Below are positions 4,372 through 28,133 of a DNA stretch of 36,271 nucleotides, one piece after another. The DNA comes from Spirochaetaceae bacterium (GTDB lineage: Bacteria; Spirochaetota; Spirochaetia; Treponematales; Rectinemataceae): assembly GCA_025355995.1 (NCBI GenBank), contig JANXYQ010000088.1, positions 1-36,271 of the forward strand, given 5' to 3'. Numbering within the stretch: position 1 is the first letter of the stretch; every line of letters starts with the position of its first letter. The position numbers and the translations under genes are program-made. Below the pieces are notes generated by a model. The model did no database searches, was not told where the DNA came from, and saw only the letters and a list, made by a program, of their open reading frames with translations.

Positions 4372-6177
4372 ATGCCCGACCTATCCGCCGTCCCCCTCCG
4401 ATCCGAAGTGCCCGAGTCCGACCGCTGGGACCTCTCCCGGCTCTATAAGGACGAGGCTGCCTGGGAGGAGGGGCTCAGGCTCCTGGACTCCATGACGGCG
4501 AAGATAGCCCCCTTCAAGGGGAGCCTCGCCTCCTCGCGCGAGGCCTTCGCCGCGGCCCTCGGCTTTTACCGCGACTTCGGCCTCCTCGACGAGAGGCTCT
4601 CCTACTACGCCTCCCTGCGCGAGAGCGAGGACGAGGGCGACAACGCCTCGCGCGGCCGCTTCGCGCGCTACATGTCCGCCTCGACGCGGGCACAAGGCGC
4701 CTGGGCCTGGTTCGTGCCCGAGATCCAGGAACTGGACGATTCCTTCGCGCGCTCCTGCCTCGCCGACCCGCGATTCGTTGAGTTCGCGGTCTTTCTCCAG
4801 AGGCTCCTGCGCTACAAGCCGCACGTGCTCTCCGAGAAGGAGGAGCGCCTCCTCGCCCTCCAGGCCGAGTCGGCCGGCGTGGCCCAGGACGCCTTCTCGG
4901 TGCTCACGAACGTCGACGTAGACTTCGGCTCGATAGACACGAGCGAGGGCCCGAGGCCGCTGACCCAATCTAGCTACCAGGCCTTCCTGCGCTCGGCTGA
5001 CCGCGACCTGCGCAAGCGCGCCTTCTTCCAGCTCTACGGCGCATACGACGCGCACAAGAACACCCTGGCTGCCCTCTATTCGGGCTCGGCGAAGCAGGAC
5101 AAGTACCGCGCCGCGGTCAGGAATTTCCCCTCCGCCCGAGCGGCCGCCCTCTTCCCTGACGACGTGGGCGAGAGCGTCTACGACAACCTCGTCGGCACGG
5201 TGTCGGAGAGCTTGCCCGTCCTCCACGAGTACTACGAGCTGCGCCGGCGCGCGCTAAAGCTCGACGAGCTGCGCCACTACGACGTTTACGTGCCCCTCGC
5301 GCCCGAGGCCAAGGCCAGGCACAGCTTCGCGGAGGCGGTCGAGCTCGTCTGCGCCGCCCTCGCGCCCCTGGGGGAGGAATACGTATCGACCCTCCGCGCG
5401 GGGATCGAGGGCCGCTGGGTCGACCGGTACGAGAACAAGGGCAAGCACTCGGGCGCCTTCTCGGCGGGGTCCTTCTCCGGCGAGCCCTACATCCTCCTCA
5501 ATTACAAGGAGGAGGTCCTGCACGACGTCTTCACCCTCGCCCACGAGGGCGGGCACTCGATGCACTCCTGGTATTCGGCCCGGTCCAACCCCTTCCTTTC
5601 CTACGGCTACGCGATCTTCGAGGCGGAGGTGGCGAGCACCTTCAACGAGCAGCTCCTCTTCCGGCACCTGTACGATGGGGCGCGGGGCGAGGCGGACAAG
5701 GCCTCCCTCGTGAGCGCCAAGCTCGACGACCTTGTCGGCACCCTCTTCAGGCAGACCATGTTCGCCGAATTCGAGAGGCGCAGCCACGAGATGGTCGAGG
5801 CCGACGAGCCACTCACCGTCGACGCCCTCAGGAGCGAGTATCGCAGGCTCCTCGAGAAATATTTCGGGAAGGGCGTGGGATTAGAGGCGGTGAGCGATCT
5901 CGAGTGCCTGCGCATCCCCCACTTCTACAACGCCTTCTACGTGTACAAGTACTCAACCGGCATAGCGGCGAGCATCGCCCTCTCCGTGCGAGTGCTCGGG
6001 GGCGGAGCGCGCGAGCGCGAGGACTATTTCGCCTTCCTGCGCTCGGGCGGCTCGCGCTTCCCCATCGAATCGCTCAAGGTCGCGGGCGTCGACATGTCGA
6101 GCCCCGAGCCCGTGCGCGCGGCCTGCCGCGACTTCGCGCGCTGGTCGGCCGAGCTGAAGCGCCTGCTCCGGCTGTGA
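4372..6177 (+). CDS. pepF: Oligoendopeptidase F (M3B metallopeptidase)
   Basis: A 601-residue cytoplasmic zinc endopeptidase that cleaves medium-length oligopeptides. The zinc motif HEGGH is at residues 391-395 (AHEGGHSMHSWYS), and the third ligand E419 is in FEAEVASTFNE, 28 residues after the first His as in the M3 family. The C-terminal FYVYKYSTGIAAS block is typical of PepF. Length is normal. Ribosome site GAGGAG lies six bases before the ATG. It probably shares a transcript with the LacI-type gene and the M28-like gene, giving an endopeptidase plus exopeptidase pair for breaking down imported peptides. Confidence 0.95.
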   Translation: MPDLSAVPLRSEVPESDRWDLSRLYKDEAAWEEGLRLLDSMTAKIAPFKGSLASSREAFAAALGFYRDFGLLDERLSYYASLRESEDEGDNASRGRFARYMSASTRAQGAWAWFVPEIQELDDSFARSCLADPRFVEFAVFLQRLLRYKPHVLSEKEERLLALQAESAGVAQDAFSVLTNVDVDFGSIDTSEGPRPLTQSSYQAFLRSADRDLRKRAFFQLYGAYDAHKNTLAALYSGSAKQDKYRAAVRNFPSARAAALFPDDVGESVYDNLVGTVSESLPVLHEYYELRRRALKLDELRHYDVYVPLAPEAKARHSFAEAVELVCAALAPLGEEYVSTLRAGIEGRWVDRYENKGKHSGAFSAGSFSGEPYILLNYKEEVLHDVFTLAHEGGHSMHSWYSARSNPFLSYGYAIFEAEVASTFNEQLLFRHLYDGARGEADKASLVSAKLDDLVGTLFRQTMFAEFERRSHEMVEADEPLTVDALRSEYRRLLEKYFGKGVGLEAVSDLECLRIPHFYNAFYVYKYSTGIAASIALSVRVLGGGAREREDYFAFLRSGGSRFPIESLKVAGVDMSSPEPVRAACRDFARWSAELKRLLRL

Positions 6178-6676: not shown

Positions 6677-7390
6677 ATGCAGAGAAAGCTTCTCGCCGCG
6701 ATCGCCATGATCGCCCTCTCCCTCTCCTTCGCCACCGCCCAGAGCGGCCTCTCCCTCGGGCTCGGCAAGAGTTCCGTCTTTCGCGTCGGCCCCGGCAAGG
6801 ACTCCACCGGCACCCAGGTCTACAGCTTCACCTACGTCTACGGCTCGGCGCTGTTCGACGCCAAGGGCAAGATAGTGGGCTGCGAGTTCGACGAGCTCGA
6901 GGTGAGCACGCCCAACTACGACGGCGCCTCCATGCCCCACTTCGCGGGCTGGCCCGGCACCCCCGGCTACAACGTGACCAACCATGAGACCGCGAAGGTC
7001 GACGGCGTATCCCCCAACACGGTCGAGTCGACCACCGCCGACGTCACGCTCTGGAAGTCCAAGCGCGAGCGCGGCGACAGCTACGGCATGAACGCTAAGA
7101 ACGACTGGCACAAGCAGATGGATTTCTACCAGGGCATCTTCGTCGGCAAGACCGTGGACGAGGTCGACGCCTGGTTCGCCAAGTACGGCAACGACGTGAA
7201 CGGCCGCCCCCTCAACCCCGACACCAAGGACGCCAAGGAGAAGGCCAAGTACGACGCCCTCTCCGCCGCGGACAAGAAGGTCGCCGTCGACGCCCGCTCC
7301 GGCGCCACGATGAGCATCGAGGACGCCCACGGAAACGTGGTGGTCGCCCTCCGCGACGCCTGGAACAAGCGCAAGCCCCTCGGCAAGTAG
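6677..7390 (+). CDS. Exported FMN-binding domain protein
   Basis: A 237-residue protein with a signal peptide (LLAAIAMIALSLSFATAQS, cleavage near residue 22). The C-terminal D205-A-R-S-G-A-T211 motif is the FMN attachment site pattern, followed by EDAHGNVVVALRDAW as in FMN-binding domains. The middle part (VYSFTYVYGSALFDAKGKIVGCEFDELEV) is the beta-rich first half. Ribosome site GGAGG precedes the ATG. It sits downstream of a smaller protein of the same family and is followed by a strong hairpin. Both probably need ApbE, which is not in the window. Similar spirochaete and Firmicutes proteins carry electrons outside the membrane; that role is inferred here. Confidence 0.8.
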   Translation: MQRKLLAAIAMIALSLSFATAQSGLSLGLGKSSVFRVGPGKDSTGTQVYSFTYVYGSALFDAKGKIVGCEFDELEVSTPNYDGASMPHFAGWPGTPGYNVTNHETAKVDGVSPNTVESTTADVTLWKSKRERGDSYGMNAKNDWHKQMDFYQGIFVGKTVDEVDAWFAKYGNDVNGRPLNPDTKDAKEKAKYDALSAADKKVAVDARSGATMSIEDAHGNVVVALRDAWNKRKPLGK

Positions 7391-7413: not shown

Positions 7414-7441
7414 GGAGGGCCGCCCCTAGGGGTGGCCCTCC
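7414..7441. terminator. Strong GC hairpin between convergent genes
   Basis: GGAGGGCCGCCCC pairs with GGGGTGGCCCTCC with one G-T wobble and a two- to four-base loop. It lies between the second FMN-binding gene and livF, which converge. No long T-tract on either side, so it may act in both directions with Rho or as an RNA 3'-end protector. Confidence 0.65.
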
Positions 7442-22317: not shown

Positions 22318-25002
22318 ATGAGCAGCACAGTGATGACCGAGAGGAAGCAGCATAAGGGAAGAAGGCCCGGCGAGGATTTCGCGATAGAGGGCAGCAGCCT
22401 CGACTCCGTGGCGGGGAAGGCGCCGAGCTCTGGGTTAGGCGAGCTCGAGGCTACCGTCCGCAGGGCGAAAGAAGCCCAGGCCATATTCGCGAGCTTCGAC
22501 CAGGCGAGGGTCGACGCCATCTTCCGCGCGGCCGCCCTCGCGGCTAGCTCCAAGCGCATCGAGCTGGCCATCGACGCTGTCGCCGAGACCGGCATGGGCA
22601 TCGTCGAGGACAAGGTCATCAAGAACCAGTTCGCGGCAGAATATATCTATAACAAATACAAGTCCATGAAGACGGTGGGAGCCGTCGAGCGCGACGAGGC
22701 GGAGGGTATCACGAGGATAGCCGAGCCCATCGGCGTGATCGCTGGCATCATTCCCACCACCAACCCGACCTCCACCGCTATCTTCAAGGCCCTCATAGCG
22801 CTGAAGACGCGTAACGCCATCGTGTTTTCCCCCCATCCCCGGGCCAAGAATTGCACGGTCAAGGCCGCGAGGATAGTCCTGGACGCGGCGGTCGCGGCGG
22901 GCGCCCCCGCCGGCATCATCGGCTGGCTCGCCGAGCCCAGCGTCGAGGCATCGAACCGCCTCATGAAGCACCCCGACATCGGCCTGATCCTCGCGACCGG
23001 GGGCCCGGGCATGGTGAAGGCCGCCTATTCGTCGGGCAAGCCCGCCCTCGGCGTGGGCGCCGGCAACACGCCCGCCGTCATAGACGAGAGCGCCGACATC
23101 GACATGGCTGTGTCCTCGATCATCCTGTCGAAGACCTTCGACAATGGGGTCATCTGCGCCTCGGAGCAGAGCGTGATCGCGGTCGAGACCGTCTACGAGG
23201 CCGTCCGCTCGCGCTTCGCCGCCCAGGGCTGCCTGATCCTGAGCGAGGCGCAGAAAGCCGCCCTGGCCGAGGTCCTCGTCGCGGACGGTCGCATCAACGC
23301 GGCCGTCGTCGGCCAGAGCGCCGGCCGGATAGCCGAGCTCGCCGGCATCGAGGCCCCCGAGGGCGTGAAGATCCTGATAGCCGAAGTCGACTCGGTGGGG
23401 TCAGGCGAGCCCTTCAGCTGGGAAAAGCTCTCCCCCGTCCTCGCCCTCTACCGCGCGAGCGACTTTTCCGCGGCGGTGGACAGGGCCGTCGCCCTCATCG
23501 AATTCGCCGGCCTGGGGCACACGGCCGCCCTCTATACCGGCTCTGCCAACCAAGCCAGGATCGACGAGTTCGCCAAGCGGGCGCGGACCGGCCGCGTCCT
23601 CGTCAATATGCCGGCCTCCCACGGGGCCATCGGAGACGTATTCAACTTCAGGCTGGAGCCTTCGCTGACCCTGGGCTGCGGGAGCTGGGGCGGCAACGGC
23701 GTGAGCGAGAACGTGGGGCCGAAGCACCTGCTCAACTACAAGACCGTCGCGGAGCGCCGCGAGAACGCCCTCTGGATCCAGCTTCCGCCCAAGATCTATC
23801 ATAAATACGGCTGCCTCGGCCTGGGCCTGAGCGAGCTCGCGGGCAAGAAACGCGCCTTCATCGTGACCGACGAGAGCCTGCTCGGCCTCGGACTCGTCGC
23901 GAGGGTAGTGGGCAAGCTGGCCTCCCTCGGGATCGGGACCTCGGTGTTCTCCGAGGTCCTGCCCGACCCGACCATCTCGAACGTCCGGAGGGGCCTGGAG
24001 CGGATGGCCGCGTACGAGCCGGACGTCATCGTCGCCCTCGGAGGCGGCTCGCCCATGGACGCGGCCAAGCTCATGTGGCTCATGTACGAGAGTCCCGCGG
24101 CCGAGTTCGAGGAGCTCGCGATGCGCTTCATGGACATCCGCAAGCGCATAGCCGCTTTCCCCAGGCTGGGCTCCAAGGCGATCCTGGTAGCCATTCCCAC
24201 GACTTCCGGCACGGGCTCCGAGGTGACTCCCTTCGCCGTGATCACCGACGACGCGGGAAAGAAATACCCCCTCGCCGACTACGCGATCACGCCCACTATC
24301 GCGATATGCGACGCCGAGCTCGCGATGTCGATGCCCAAGGGCCTCACCGCGGCCGGAGGCATCGACGCCCTCACTCACGCCCTCGAGGCTCTGGTTTCCT
24401 GCATGGCGAGCGATTTCACGGCTCCCCTCGCGATGGAATCGGCGCGCCTGCTCTTCGAGTACCTGCCTCGCGCCTACTCGACGGGAGCCACGGATCGCGA
24501 GGCGAGGCAGGAGGTCCACAACGCCGCGACCATGGCTGGCATGGCCTTCGCCAACGCCTTCCTGGGCCTCTGTCACTCGATGGCCCACAAGCTCGGCGCC
24601 AGGTACCGCCTGCCCCACGGCGTCGCCAACGCCCTCCTCATCGAGCAGGTGATGTCGTACAACGCGGAGGAGGCGCCCGCGAAGATGGTCGCCTTCGCCC
24701 AGTACAAGTACCCTATGGCGAAGGCGGCCTACGCCCGCCTCGGCCGCTACCTCGGTTTGCGAGGATCGGACGACGAGGAGCTCCTATCCTCCCTCATCGC
24801 GGCCGTGGCGGGGCTCAAGAAGGAAATCGGAATCCCCGCCTCTATACGCGAGGCTGGCGTAAGCGAGGAAGCCTTTTTAGCCGATCTCGACGAGCTCGCG
24901 TTGGACGCCTTCGACGACCAGTGCACGGGAACCAATCCCCGCTACCCGCTCGTCGCAGAGATAAGGGCCCTCTACCTAAAGGCATATTACGGAAACAATT
25001 AG
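22318..25002 (+). CDS. adhE: Bifunctional acetaldehyde-CoA/alcohol dehydrogenase
   Basis: An 894-residue fusion that reduces acetyl-CoA to ethanol with two NADH. The N-terminal aldehyde dehydrogenase domain has PIGVIAGIIPTTNPTSTAIF, GVGAGNTPAVID and the thiolate C280 in NGVICASEQSVI. The C-terminal iron alcohol dehydrogenase domain has VALGGGSPMDAAKLMW, IPTTSGTGSEVTPFAVI and the metal-binding HSMAHKLGARYRLPHGVANALL. AGGAGG seven bases before the ATG supports this start, which gives an N-terminal extension of about 40 residues before the usual family beginning (LEATVRRAKEAQAIFASF). It stands alone between two terminators. Confidence 0.96.
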   Translation: MSSTVMTERKQHKGRRPGEDFAIEGSSLDSVAGKAPSSGLGELEATVRRAKEAQAIFASFDQARVDAIFRAAALAASSKRIELAIDAVAETGMGIVEDKVIKNQFAAEYIYNKYKSMKTVGAVERDEAEGITRIAEPIGVIAGIIPTTNPTSTAIFKALIALKTRNAIVFSPHPRAKNCTVKAARIVLDAAVAAGAPAGIIGWLAEPSVEASNRLMKHPDIGLILATGGPGMVKAAYSSGKPALGVGAGNTPAVIDESADIDMAVSSIILSKTFDNGVICASEQSVIAVETVYEAVRSRFAAQGCLILSEAQKAALAEVLVADGRINAAVVGQSAGRIAELAGIEAPEGVKILIAEVDSVGSGEPFSWEKLSPVLALYRASDFSAAVDRAVALIEFAGLGHTAALYTGSANQARIDEFAKRARTGRVLVNMPASHGAIGDVFNFRLEPSLTLGCGSWGGNGVSENVGPKHLLNYKTVAERRENALWIQLPPKIYHKYGCLGLGLSELAGKKRAFIVTDESLLGLGLVARVVGKLASLGIGTSVFSEVLPDPTISNVRRGLERMAAYEPDVIVALGGGSPMDAAKLMWLMYESPAAEFEELAMRFMDIRKRIAAFPRLGSKAILVAIPTTSGTGSEVTPFAVITDDAGKKYPLADYAITPTIAICDAELAMSMPKGLTAAGGIDALTHALEALVSCMASDFTAPLAMESARLLFEYLPRAYSTGATDREARQEVHNAATMAGMAFANAFLGLCHSMAHKLGARYRLPHGVANALLIEQVMSYNAEEAPAKMVAFAQYKYPMAKAAYARLGRYLGLRGSDDEELLSSLIAAVAGLKKEIGIPASIREAGVSEEAFLADLDELALDAFDDQCTGTNPRYPLVAEIRALYLKAYYGNN

Positions 25003-25010
25003 GAAATAGG

Positions 25011-25048
25011 GCGAGAGGGCAACCTTCGGCAAGGTTTCCCTCTCTCGC
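25011..25048. terminator. Hairpin terminator after adhE
   Basis: GCGAGAGGG and AACCTT on the left pair with AAGGTT and CCCTCTC-CGC on the right around a CGGC loop. No strong T-tract. It resembles the hairpin at 564-600 in layout and sequence. Confidence 0.7.
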
Positions 25049-25098
25049 TCTCCCTTCCAAGGCCAGGAAGGCCCTTGCGTGGATTTAGTTTGTCAGTT

Positions 25099-25122
25099 AT
25101 TATACTGGACGTCCAGCATAAT
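25099..25122. promoter_or_regulatory. 24-base palindromic operator of the TetR-type gene
   Basis: Centred on CTGGACGTCCAG (25105-25116), with arms reaching ATTAT on the left and ATAAT on the right; 11 of 12 base pairs match. The left arm contains TATACT (25101-25106), a good -10 box. The right arm ends just before the ribosome site AGGAG (25124-25128). Binding there would block transcription of the regulator and the coupled flavodoxin/ferredoxin gene. Confidence 0.75.
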
Positions 25123-25133
25123 CAGGAGCCTGA

Positions 25134-25778
25134 ATGCCGCGTAAAAGCAATGAGGACGACCGTCGCTCGGAGACCATCCGCGCCGTGTGGGCCCTGGTCG
25201 CGAGCCGCGGCATCGAGGGCGCGACTATCGAGAGAGTAGCCGGGCTCTGCTCCTTCTCCAAGGGCGTCATCCACTATTACTTCGACTCGAAGAAGGCTCT
25301 CCTCCTCGCCGCCTTCCAGGCCTACCTCGAGGCCTACGACGGAGAGATAGCCGCCAAGCTGGCAGCCCTCGGGCGCGAGCCCTGCGCGCTCGAGGTCCTC
25401 GAAGCCGTGATCGACTCCACCCTCCCTCCCTTCTCTATGGAGGACGTCGAGCCTGGGGAGCTTCCCGCCTTGGGGCCGGGCGAGCCCCTGAGCCCGCGCT
25501 ATAAAGCGAGGCTCTTCATCCAATTCTTCTCCCTCGCCGTCCGCGAAAGGGAGTTCGCCGAGGTCGTGCGGCTTTCCTACGAACGCCAGGGGGCGGCGAT
25601 CGAAGCCTGTTTCCCGGCCTTGGGACCCGCGGGCGCGAGGGAAGCCTCGGCTTCGCTCATGGCCCTAATAGACGGGTTCTCGCTACATCGAGTGCTCGGC
25701 TACCTGCCCTCGGGCTTGCCGGAGCACGCCGAGCTGGGACGCCGCTTCGCGGCTGGCTTCTCGAGGAGAGCTTTGTGA
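25134..25778 (+). CDS. TetR/AcrR-family transcriptional regulator
   Basis: A 214-residue regulator with a typical N-terminal TetR helix-turn-helix: TIRAVWALVASRGIEGATIERVAGLCSFSKGV followed by IHYYFDSKKALLLAAF (about residues 14-62). The ligand-binding half ends with a helix pattern like BetI-type regulators (ASLMALIDGFSLHRVL). Start at 25134 has AGGAG five bases upstream. A 24-base palindrome lies directly upstream, suggesting autorepression. Its stop overlaps the start of the next gene by four bases (GTGA), so it very likely controls that redox protein. The ligand is unknown. Confidence 0.9.
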   Translation: MPRKSNEDDRRSETIRAVWALVASRGIEGATIERVAGLCSFSKGVIHYYFDSKKALLLAAFQAYLEAYDGEIAAKLAALGREPCALEVLEAVIDSTLPPFSMEDVEPGELPALGPGEPLSPRYKARLFIQFFSLAVREREFAEVVRLSYERQGAAIEACFPALGPAGAREASASLMALIDGFSLHRVLGYLPSGLPEHAELGRRFAAGFSRRAL

Positions 25779-26830
25779 GCACCGCGCGTTTCCATGTTTT
25801 TTCCGGCACGGGCAACGGCCGCAGCATCGCCCGGGAGCTCTCGGCCCGGCTCGGCCTCAGGGGCTTCTCGACCGAGATGCTCGAGGTGAGCTTCCGCTCC
25901 ATCGAGAAGGGCTCCGCGACTATCTCGCGCGGCGAGGGCGATCTCGATATCTTCATCTTCCCGGTCTACGCGATGTCGGTCCCGCGCATAATGGCGAGAT
26001 ACGCCGCGGGCCTCGGAAGGGCGGGAAGGCAAGGCGGCGCCCCGAGGGCCGCAGTCCTCTCCGTCAACGGCCGGATCAGCCCCGAGCGCCGGGACGGCCA
26101 CGAGGGCCAGGCCCTCGCCCAGGCCGAGCGCGTCCTCCGCCGGCGCGGCTGGGACGTCCGCTACCGCGAGACCTTCGATTATCCGCAAAACGTGACGAGC
26201 ATCGGCTCGGCCCAGGACGCGGAGACGAGGGCGGCCATAGTCTCCCTCATGGCGCCGCGGCTGGAGACGGTGGCCGAGGAGCTCGCCGCCGGGCTGCGGC
26301 GGAAGAGGCCCTGCCCGGCCTGGGCCCATATCCTGGGCTGGCCCTTCGGCTGGCTCTACCGCATCTTTGGCAGGAGGGCCTGGGGCCTGCTCTTCGCCGC
26401 GGACGAGCGCTGCGACGGCTGCGGTCTCTGCGCCGAGCGCTGTCCCTCCGGCGCGATTCGGATGCGCGGCGGCAGGCCGGGGTGGAGCTACGCCTGCGAG
26501 GGCTGCGAGCGCTGCATGAATCTCTGCCCCAAGAAGGCCATTCAGGCTTCGCTGCTCAGGTTCTCGCTCGTCATCGGGCTCAGCATAGCCCTGTTCCGCG
26601 TACCGCCCGGATTGAGGGAAGCCCTCTCCTCGCTGCCCGGCTGGGTCCCGACCCTCGGATGGATGGGAGCCGCGACCCTCGCCGGGTTCGCCCTCCTCAG
26701 GCTCCTCGACCTCGCCCTGGTAGCTTTATCTCGCCTCGCCTTCCTGCGGCCCATCCTCGGCTTCGGCTGGACCCGCTGGACCCGGCGCTATCCCGATCCG
26801 AGCCGAGGCTCGACCGACGGGCGGCCGTAG
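25775..26830 (+). CDS. EFR1-type flavodoxin/ferredoxin fusion with membrane segment
   Basis: A 351-residue protein starting at GTG in a GTGA overlap with the TetR gene. The N-terminal flavodoxin-like domain begins with an FMN-phosphate loop SGTGNG (10-15). Two [4Fe-4S] motifs follow: C213, C216, C219, C223 (CDGCGLCAERCP) and C241, C244, C247, C251 (CEGCERCMNLCP). After them come two hydrophobic stretches (FSLVIGLSIALF and GWMGAATLAGFALLRLLDLALVAL) that may anchor it to the membrane. This layout fits the EFR1 family of ferredoxin-like proteins, whose partners are not well known. It probably moves electrons between ferredoxin and flavin carriers. Its last 105 bases overlap the 3' end of rex on the other strand. 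Confidence 0.82.
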   Translation: MSTARFHVFSGTGNGRSIARELSARLGLRGFSTEMLEVSFRSIEKGSATISRGEGDLDIFIFPVYAMSVPRIMARYAAGLGRAGRQGGAPRAAVLSVNGRISPERRDGHEGQALAQAERVLRRRGWDVRYRETFDYPQNVTSIGSAQDAETRAAIVSLMAPRLETVAEELAAGLRRKRPCPAWAHILGWPFGWLYRIFGRRAWGLLFAADERCDGCGLCAERCPSGAIRMRGGRPGWSYACEGCERCMNLCPKKAIQASLLRFSLVIGLSIALFRVPPGLREALSSLPGWVPTLGWMGAATLAGFALLRLLDLALVALSRLAFLRPILGFGWTRWTRRYPDPSRGSTDGRP

Positions 26831-27457
26831 CCGCTTTTCGAGCTCTCGCTTGACCGAGGCCAGCTGGAACCCGATGTCCTCGTTGAGGATGACGAGGCCC
26901 TCCACCTCCTCGAGGCTTTCGCCGGAGAGGTTGACGAGGCCGCGGATGCCGGCCTCGGCGGCGAGTTTTGCGCAGCCGGGGAATTTCGACTCGCCGACCG
27001 CCAGCAGGGCGAGCCTCACCCTCATCCGGTGTGCGAGCGCGGGCAATTCGGCCAGGGGCAGGACCCTCAAGCCGCAGACCAGCTCGGCGGCGCCCTCCGG
27101 CGAGGGGTCGAATACGGCCGCCACCTTGAAGCCGCGGCGGCCGAGGCTCCCGTCCCTGCAGACCGCCTCCCCTCGGGGCCCGGCGCCGATGAGGAAGACT
27201 TCCGTGAGGCCGTTTACGCCCACCAGCTCGCCCAAGAGCCTGGCCGTCTCCTCCACCCGGAAGCCGCGCCTCGGGCTGGCGGGCGCCCCCGTGAGGGCCA
27301 GGTCCTTGCGCACCTGTATCGCCGTGAGCCCGAGCTGCCTGCCCATCGCCTCCGAGGATATCCATCCCTCGCCCCGCAGTCCCTTTTCGCGCAGGAGGGC
27401 TAGGTAACGGGGCAGGCGCTTGAGGGTGGGGAGGGGAAGGGAGACGAGGTCAGGCAC
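26726..27457 (-). CDS. rex: Redox-sensing transcriptional repressor Rex
   Basis: A 243-residue Rex-family protein, which binds DNA when NADH/NAD+ is low and releases it when NADH binds. N-terminal winged helix: LPLPTLKRLPRYLALL, then LGLTAIQVRKDLALTG. The Rossmann domain starts at VFLIGAGPRGEAV (GAGPRG, 91-96) and continues with KVAAVFDPSPEG. Pro and Arg replace the usual Asn-Leu in the glycine loop. Start is GTG at 27457, eight bases inside the hypB 3' end, with no clear ribosome site, so coupling to hypB is likely. The C-terminus has an unusual 33-residue tail that lies antisense to the flavodoxin/ferredoxin gene. Likely targets are ech and adhE. Confidence 0.85.
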   Translation of the reverse strand: MPDLVSLPLPTLKRLPRYLALLREKGLRGEGWISSEAMGRQLGLTAIQVRKDLALTGAPASPRRGFRVEETARLLGELVGVNGLTEVFLIGAGPRGEAVCRDGSLGRRGFKVAAVFDPSPEGAAELVCGLRVLPLAELPALAHRMRVRLALLAVGESKFPGCAKLAAEAGIRGLVNLSGESLEEVEGLVILNEDIGFQLASVKRELEKRLRPPVGRASARIGIAPGPAGPAEAEDGPQEGEAR

Positions 27458-28133
27458 GGCCGTGGTCCGCGGCGGCGGAGCGGGCCGTAAGCGCGTCACG
27501 CGCTTCGCGGAGCCACAGGGCCAGGGCGTCGGCGCCCGCCCCGGTGCGGCCGTTGACCGGGAAGACCGGCGCGTTAGGCGCAACCGAGGCGAGGCCGGCC
27601 ATGAAGAAGCCCTCGTCGAAGCCCACGGCCTGGGCGAGGTCTCCCTTGGTGAGGACGCAGGCAGCCGACCTCGAGAAGGCGGTGGGGTATTTGTAGGGCT
27701 TGTCGCTGCCCTCGGCCGCGCTGGCGACCACTATCTTCAGGTCCTCGCCGATGACGAATTCCGCCGGGCAGATGAGGTTGCCGATGTTCTCGATGAAGAG
27801 CCAGGAGCCGTCGGAGAGCCTCATCCGGCCGAGGATGGCCTTGATCATGGGAGCGTTGAGGTGGCAATCGCCGCCCGTCTCGATCTGGAAGGCGTCGATG
27901 CCGAGGGCGCGCAGGGCCCGCGTATCGATGTCGCTCGCCACGTCGCCCTCTATCACCGAGAGGGCATCGGGGGCGAGGCGCTCCGCGAGCCTCGTGATGA
28001 GGCTGGTCTTGCCCGCCCCGGGGCTGCCCAGCACATTCACCGTGAATATGCCCCGCTCCCTGAGCCCGCGGTTTATCTCGCCGGCTAGGGCGTCGTTCTC
28101 CTCGTAGACCGCGCGCTTGAGCTCGACTCTCAT
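27450..28133 (-). CDS. hypB: Hydrogenase nickel incorporation GTPase HypB
   Basis: A 227-residue SIMIBI GTPase that helps HypA insert nickel into [NiFe] hydrogenase. P-loop GSPGAGKTS (37-45), then EGDVASDIDT, the metal-binding GGDCHLNA with Cys and His, and FIENIGNLICPAEF, all HypB signatures. It lacks the N-terminal His-rich nickel store. It overlaps hypA by four bases (ATGA) and rex by eight. The rest of the Hyp set (CDEF) is not in the window. Confidence 0.95.
   Translation of the reverse strand: MRVELKRAVYEENDALAGEINRGLRERGIFTVNVLGSPGAGKTSLITRLAERLAPDALSVIEGDVASDIDTRALRALGIDAFQIETGGDCHLNAPMIKAILGRMRLSDGSWLFIENIGNLICPAEFVIGEDLKIVVASAAEGSDKPYKYPTAFSRSAACVLTKGDLAQAVGFDEGFFMAGLASVAPNAPVFPVNGRTGAGADALALWLREARDALTARSAAADHGRA

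Follow-up and report, generated by a model that had tools for sequence, protein, structure and literature searches.

In a 36,271-nt contig of a Spirochaetaceae bacterium (hereafter the window), a TetR-family regulator gene (tetR) and an EFR1-family gene (efr1) lie next to each other on the forward strand and constitute a real, conserved and probably self-regulated gene pair. The EFR1 family itself is known, and the form described here, which carries a membrane tail and is paired with a regulator, is a new variant of it. The anatomy of the protein, together with the comparative evidence, lends good support to a membrane electron carrier under TetR regulation, as the sequence-only reading had suggested, while the link of that carrier to the neighboring genes adhE, rex and ech was found to be weak.

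The tetR-efr1 gene pair and its products

The two ORFs, known from the ORF list and from the sequence itself, share a stop/start overlap exactly as the sequence-only reading had described (Table 1). Overlaps of four bases were also found elsewhere: ATGA in both TetR-EFR1 pairs of the nearest relative compared, a member of the same genus (congener UBA1306, G001), and GTGA in G017. A rex-like gene (ORF 26726-27583, minus strand, Put_DNA-bind_N match) runs convergently to efr1, and the 3' ends of the two genes overlap by ~105 bases (26726-26830). The hydrogenase genes are likewise convergent to the pair.

Table 1 Features of the tetR-efr1 region, in coordinates of the window
Feature	Position	Strand	Basis or remark
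adhE (aldehyde-alcohol dehydrogenase), upstream neighbor	22318-25002	+	ORF; adhE of the congener recognized via Aldedh and Fe-ADH domains
Strong RNA hairpin downstream of adhE, probably a terminator that sets the pair apart from it	25008-25050	+	MFE -25.1 kcal/mol, z -3.4
Operator-like palindrome ATTATACTGGACGTCCAGCATAAT	25099-25122		11/12 pairs, 24 bases
TetR-family regulator, BetI-like, 214 aa	25134-25778	+	TetR_N and TetR_C_6 matches
GTGA start/stop overlap	25775-25778	+	Translational coupling; read from sequence
EFR1-family protein with membrane tail, 351 aa	25775-26830	+	NF038196
Flavodoxin-like domain (beta-1 to beta-5, residues 4-134)	25784-26176	+	Profile match, Foldseek, loop
Phosphate-binding loop SGTGNG (residues 10-15)	25802-25819	+	T12, G13 and N14 invariant
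Two [4Fe-4S] motifs, CDGCGLCAERCP and CEGCERCMNLCP (residues 213-252)	26411-26530	+	Fer4 and Fer4_9 matches
Membrane hairpin of two hydrophobic segments (residues 256-274 and 300-318)	26540-26728	+	Kyte-Doolittle means 1.85 and 1.96
Invariant Arg-Tyr (338-339), basic C-terminal end after the hairpin	26786-26791	+	Alignment of tailed relatives

The TetR protein matched the TetR_N helix-turn-helix model with 34.7 bits (gathering score 24) and TetR_C_6 with 34.4 bits (cut-off 27). Its best NCBIfam models were those of BetI, the choline-responsive TetR repressor, with which it has the DNA-binding half and the TetR_C_6 domain in common, and it could be aligned with E. coli BetI over most of its length (24% identity, 206 aligned positions). 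However, the BetI score (TIGR03384) was 69.7 bits against an equivalog cut-off of 201.3, and the adjacent genes are not bet genes for choline/betaine; they are adhE, efr1 and the rex-like gene with hydrogenase-type genes. Since score and gene context both fail, the protein is not BetI, although it looks BetI-like in DNA recognition. It is membership of the TetR family alone that suggests the ligand induction assumed in the sequence-only reading.

The efr1 product scored 119.2 bits with the EFR1 family model NF038196 (curated cut-off 75) over residues 9-258. The likeness consists of a flavodoxin-like N-terminus and two [4Fe-4S] motifs; the model ends after the clusters, at residue 258, and does not cover the two-segment tail, which soluble EFR1 proteins do not have. 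The solved flavodoxin 2fz5 was matched by profile (E 6e-6). Foldseek matches to flavodoxins (E about 1e-4) came from a low-confidence predicted structure (mean pLDDT 52), which was used for the flavodoxin part alone. Foldseek matches to GPCRs were set aside as artefacts, caused either by low-confidence helices or by flavodoxin-type fusion partners in those crystals. Cysteines 213, 216, 219 and 223 and cysteines 241, 244, 247 and 251 form two CxxCxxCxxxCP motifs, and all eight are invariant in an alignment of nine tailed relatives. The first hydrophobic segment starts five residues after Cys251, the last cluster cysteine, so the last cluster may be held at the membrane surface. The combination of flavodoxin-like domain, two [4Fe-4S] clusters and membrane segments claimed earlier thus agrees with the profile, Foldseek and Fer4 matches and with the two hydrophobic segments. 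Weak profile matches to the ferredoxin part came from RnfB (23.1 against a cut-off of 68.7) and NapH (21 against 234), which likewise have membrane-associated [4Fe-4S] ferredoxin domains. They differ from EFR1, however, in that neither is known to contain a flavodoxin domain.

The palindrome before tetR and the upstream hairpin

The near-perfect palindrome, with half-sites ATTATACTGGAC and GTCCAGCATAAT, ends 11 bases 5' of the tetR start, and when the intergenic sequence was shuffled 20,000 times, its degree of pairing was reached in 7 cases. One other 24-mer with 11/12 pairs was found in the window, at 7416-7439 in the gap after a gene ending at 7390, and is possibly a terminator. The 21-base operator core is unique in the 4.5 Mb genome at ≤3 mismatches. 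At the same place in the congener, 18 of its 21 bases are identical (none of 2,000 shuffles reached 18; maximum 16), and this is the only such site in the congener genome. The intergenic DNA around the operator does not align between the two genomes, so the retained bases constitute a phylogenetic footprint. The operator-like palindrome proposed from sequence is thereby confirmed, but the presence of a -10 box beneath it was not established, as a sigma-70 scan recognized no promoter. The nearest candidate found by eye, TTGCGT-17-TATTAT at 25075-25103, is weak and has a poor first hexamer. When the operator was compared with every position in a 6 kb stretch of the E. coli bet locus, the best match (14/21) fell in the betI-betT intergenic region (TGATTGGACGTTCAATATAAA), and the next unrelated place reached 12/21, a comparison of sequence similarity only. 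The likeness to this region consists of a core TGGACGTYCA with flanking ATAA.

A hairpin of different sequence (z -4.0) stands at the equivalent place in the congener. The hairpin in the window contains no T-run, and consequently the terminator scan gave it no score. Since adhE is followed by a strong hairpin in each of the two genomes, tetR-efr1 is probably its own transcription unit. The gene order adhE-tetR-efr1 is kept in the congener, whose TetR protein is 60.6% identical to that of the window and whose EFR1 protein is split over two contigs, with halves 60-70% identical. A further tailed EFR1 gene of the congener (L045, on C124) lies behind a different TetR gene, again with a 4-base ATGA overlap.

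Tailed EFR1 genes in Spirochaetota

The EFR1 proteins of Spirochaetota fall into two kinds, with a bimodal distribution of the tail. In tailed proteins the last Cys-Pro is followed by 91-126 residues with two to three hydrophobic segments (44/44), whereas soluble proteins have 16-62 residues there and, in complete members, no hydrophobic segment. The few entries that deviate come from incomplete records, among them truncated copies of the proteins of the window and the congener. When the labels soluble and tailed were placed on a tree built from the shared core, three changes sufficed, against ~34 with shuffled labels, and at least one of these changes, the apparent tail loss of L073, is due to a contig end. 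By this measure the tailed form is nearly one clade, a near-single-origin subclass apart from soluble EFR1. Plasmid matches in Bacteroidales and Pusillibacter stop at query residue 257 and leave the tail unmatched. Three further EFR1-family genes over the cut-off occur in the genome of the window (G000): on C15 and C62 they are without the tail, and on C136 the gene reaches a contig end.

A neighborhood survey of EFR1 genes, suggested as a check on the sequence-only reading, was carried out on tailed genes with >500 bases upstream (n = 41). A same-strand TetR gene lies directly upstream in eight of them: the window gene, both copies of the congener, and those of G017, G465, G127, G190 and G124. 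The TetR gene of G138 makes a ninth, divergent pairing. In the genome of the window, 27 genes pass the TetR_N cut-off, so that ~0.7% would be expected to have an upstream TetR gene if ~4,000 genes are assumed; the resulting binomial probability of about 4e-10 is only a guide, since the relatives are not independent. The TetR proteins belong to at least four clans without full-length similarity (the window with one congener copy, G001a; the other congener copy, G001c, with G465 and G127; G190 with G124 and G138; and G017), and the tailed-with-TetR label required six changes on the EFR1 tree. Several of these pairs have their own long palindromes of differing sequence before the TetR gene, with 18-base arms in G017 and 10-base arms in G465. 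The palindrome at the start of the G017 pair (L051, about 4700-4735, minus strand), whose TetR is unrelated, is a perfect inverted repeat, TGAACTCATGGTTCATAT-t-ATATGAACCATGAGTTCA.

Soluble EFR1 genes lie behind TetR in 3 of about 58 cases, and the difference from the tailed genes was marginal (Fisher p 0.047). Given this value and the three soluble cases, we did not accept pairing with TetR as a specific trait of tailed EFR1.

Furthermore, a PAS_10 gene precedes six tailed genes, a hemerythrin domain was found in five upstream genes, and DUF438, hemerythrin and PAS occur together on a downstream neighbor elsewhere. We infer that the six PAS_10 neighbors are of the PAS-hemerythrin type. In L048, L098, L099, L100, L101 and L119, the tailed EFR1 gene lies 1-21 bases behind a gene for a conserved 430-residue protein, which the family scan suggests to be a PAS/hemerythrin sensor and hence a second kind of sensor pairing. 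The other neighbors of tailed EFR1 genes were mixed and largely housekeeping, and no enzyme partner recurred beside them in a Pfam scan.

The survey also bears on the proposed module with adhE, rex and ech. The adjacency of adhE stands in the sole congener seen, but the rex and hydrogenase genes are convergent to the pair, and no such neighbors recur at other tailed EFR1 genes. Terminator-like hairpins and the neighborhoods of other tailed genes led us to reject a tight link to adhE.

Proposed electron relay and alternative explanations

We judge the chances to be about even that tetR-efr1 is a self-contained, self-regulated unit encoding an inducible, stand-alone membrane electron relay. A BetI-like TetR dimer would bind the palindrome and repress its own operon until a ligand releases it, and translational coupling would keep carrier and repressor in proportion. 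EFR1 would act as a relay on the cytoplasmic side, where FMN in the flavodoxin-like domain would exchange electrons with two [4Fe-4S] clusters, the second held at the membrane surface by the two-helix hairpin. By electron transfer it would probably connect a membrane partner, for instance Rnf or a group 4 hydrogenase, with soluble low-potential carriers, namely ferredoxin, flavodoxin and NAD(P)H oxidoreductases; alternatively, EFR1 might feed a lipophilic substrate. The sequences themselves show the gene pair, the footprint at the operator, the order of the domains, the tail and the recurrent pairing, whereas repression and its release by a ligand, the FMN and clusters, the topology, the direction in which electrons flow and the partner are inferred.

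The genome encodes an RnfD-type protein (a strong match, 265 bits), and a group 4 hydrogenase-type operon lies within the window. The menaquinone pathway was not convincing, with one weak VitK2_biosynth match, a UbiA-type match below the menA cut-off and no convincing Mqn set. This favors a ferredoxin/Rnf/hydrogenase pool over quinone, and the relay probably works with that pool, although an exogenous quinone or other lipophilic compound may be the acceptor. Counting against the relay reading are the failure of the sigma-70 scan to recognize a promoter, an operator common to the window and the congener alone and to no further pair, the lack of an EFR1 model of adequate confidence, the 33 of 41 tailed genes with no same-strand TetR gene directly upstream, and the marginal Fisher test.

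An unlikely alternative is that EFR1 reduces quinones or xenobiotics as a membrane-bound enzyme, in which FMN and the clusters would pass electrons to a quinone-like or lipophilic compound that is also the TetR ligand, as part of stress-inducible detoxification. Lipophilic or aromatic compounds are often the ligands of TetR regulators, detoxification would suit genes that stand alone, coupled to a regulator but to no enzyme, and the low-confidence model also matches MdaB and WrbA, which are quinone-reductase-like and have the common flavodoxin fold. However, simple quinone reductases do not need two [4Fe-4S] clusters, and the weak menaquinone matches make a native quinone pool doubtful.

It is improbable that the pair is tied to adhE and tunes electron supply for alcohol/aldehyde metabolism in response to an acyl-CoA or aldehyde: the gene order kept in the congener speaks for it, but a terminator-like hairpin stands between them in either genome, no Pfam family found beside other tailed EFR1 genes belongs to AdhE, and AdhE uses NAD(H), not ferredoxin. 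We regard as very improbable a TetR protein that mainly regulates genes elsewhere, its coupling to efr1 being incidental. More than one target is known for some TetR regulators, depending on the species, but neither genome has a second operator at ≤3 mismatches, and unrelated TetR clans are repeatedly paired with tailed EFR1 genes.

The nearest analogue of the relay in gene logic is BilQ-BilS, a small regulator gene with a flavodoxin-like carrier. In the BilQ-BilR-BilS bilirubin reductase operon, BilQ is a MarR regulator, BilS is flavodoxin-like and BilR is a dedicated enzyme (PMC10769871), whereas tetR-efr1 has no such enzyme. An EFR1 homologue with an assigned reaction, which would have spoken against the sequence-only reading, was not found in the paper library; no paper there dealt with EFR1 function, and one gave the gene only as an entry in an expression table.

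The wider interest lies in a membrane-tailed EFR1 subclass repeatedly placed under unrelated sensors, for which the proposed mechanism is plausible. More tentatively, tailed EFR1 proteins could be an undescribed Spirochaetota class of inducible stand-alone membrane relays that connect to any low-potential pool the cell has, placed under PAS-hemerythrin sensors and under TetR regulators of at least four clans. The repeated placement under unrelated kinds of sensor suggests that expression, and not a dedicated enzyme partner, would define their role. EFR1 genes are found in many bacteria and are named by domain only, and a clearly delimited subclass that is anchored in the membrane and has repressors and operators of its own offers testable handles: the TetR ligand would point to the substrate or stress, and the hairpin to the membrane partner. 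If this is right, flavin and iron-sulfur cofactors would form an additional entry point into the membrane energetics of spirochaetes in which a convincing menaquinone pathway seems to be absent.
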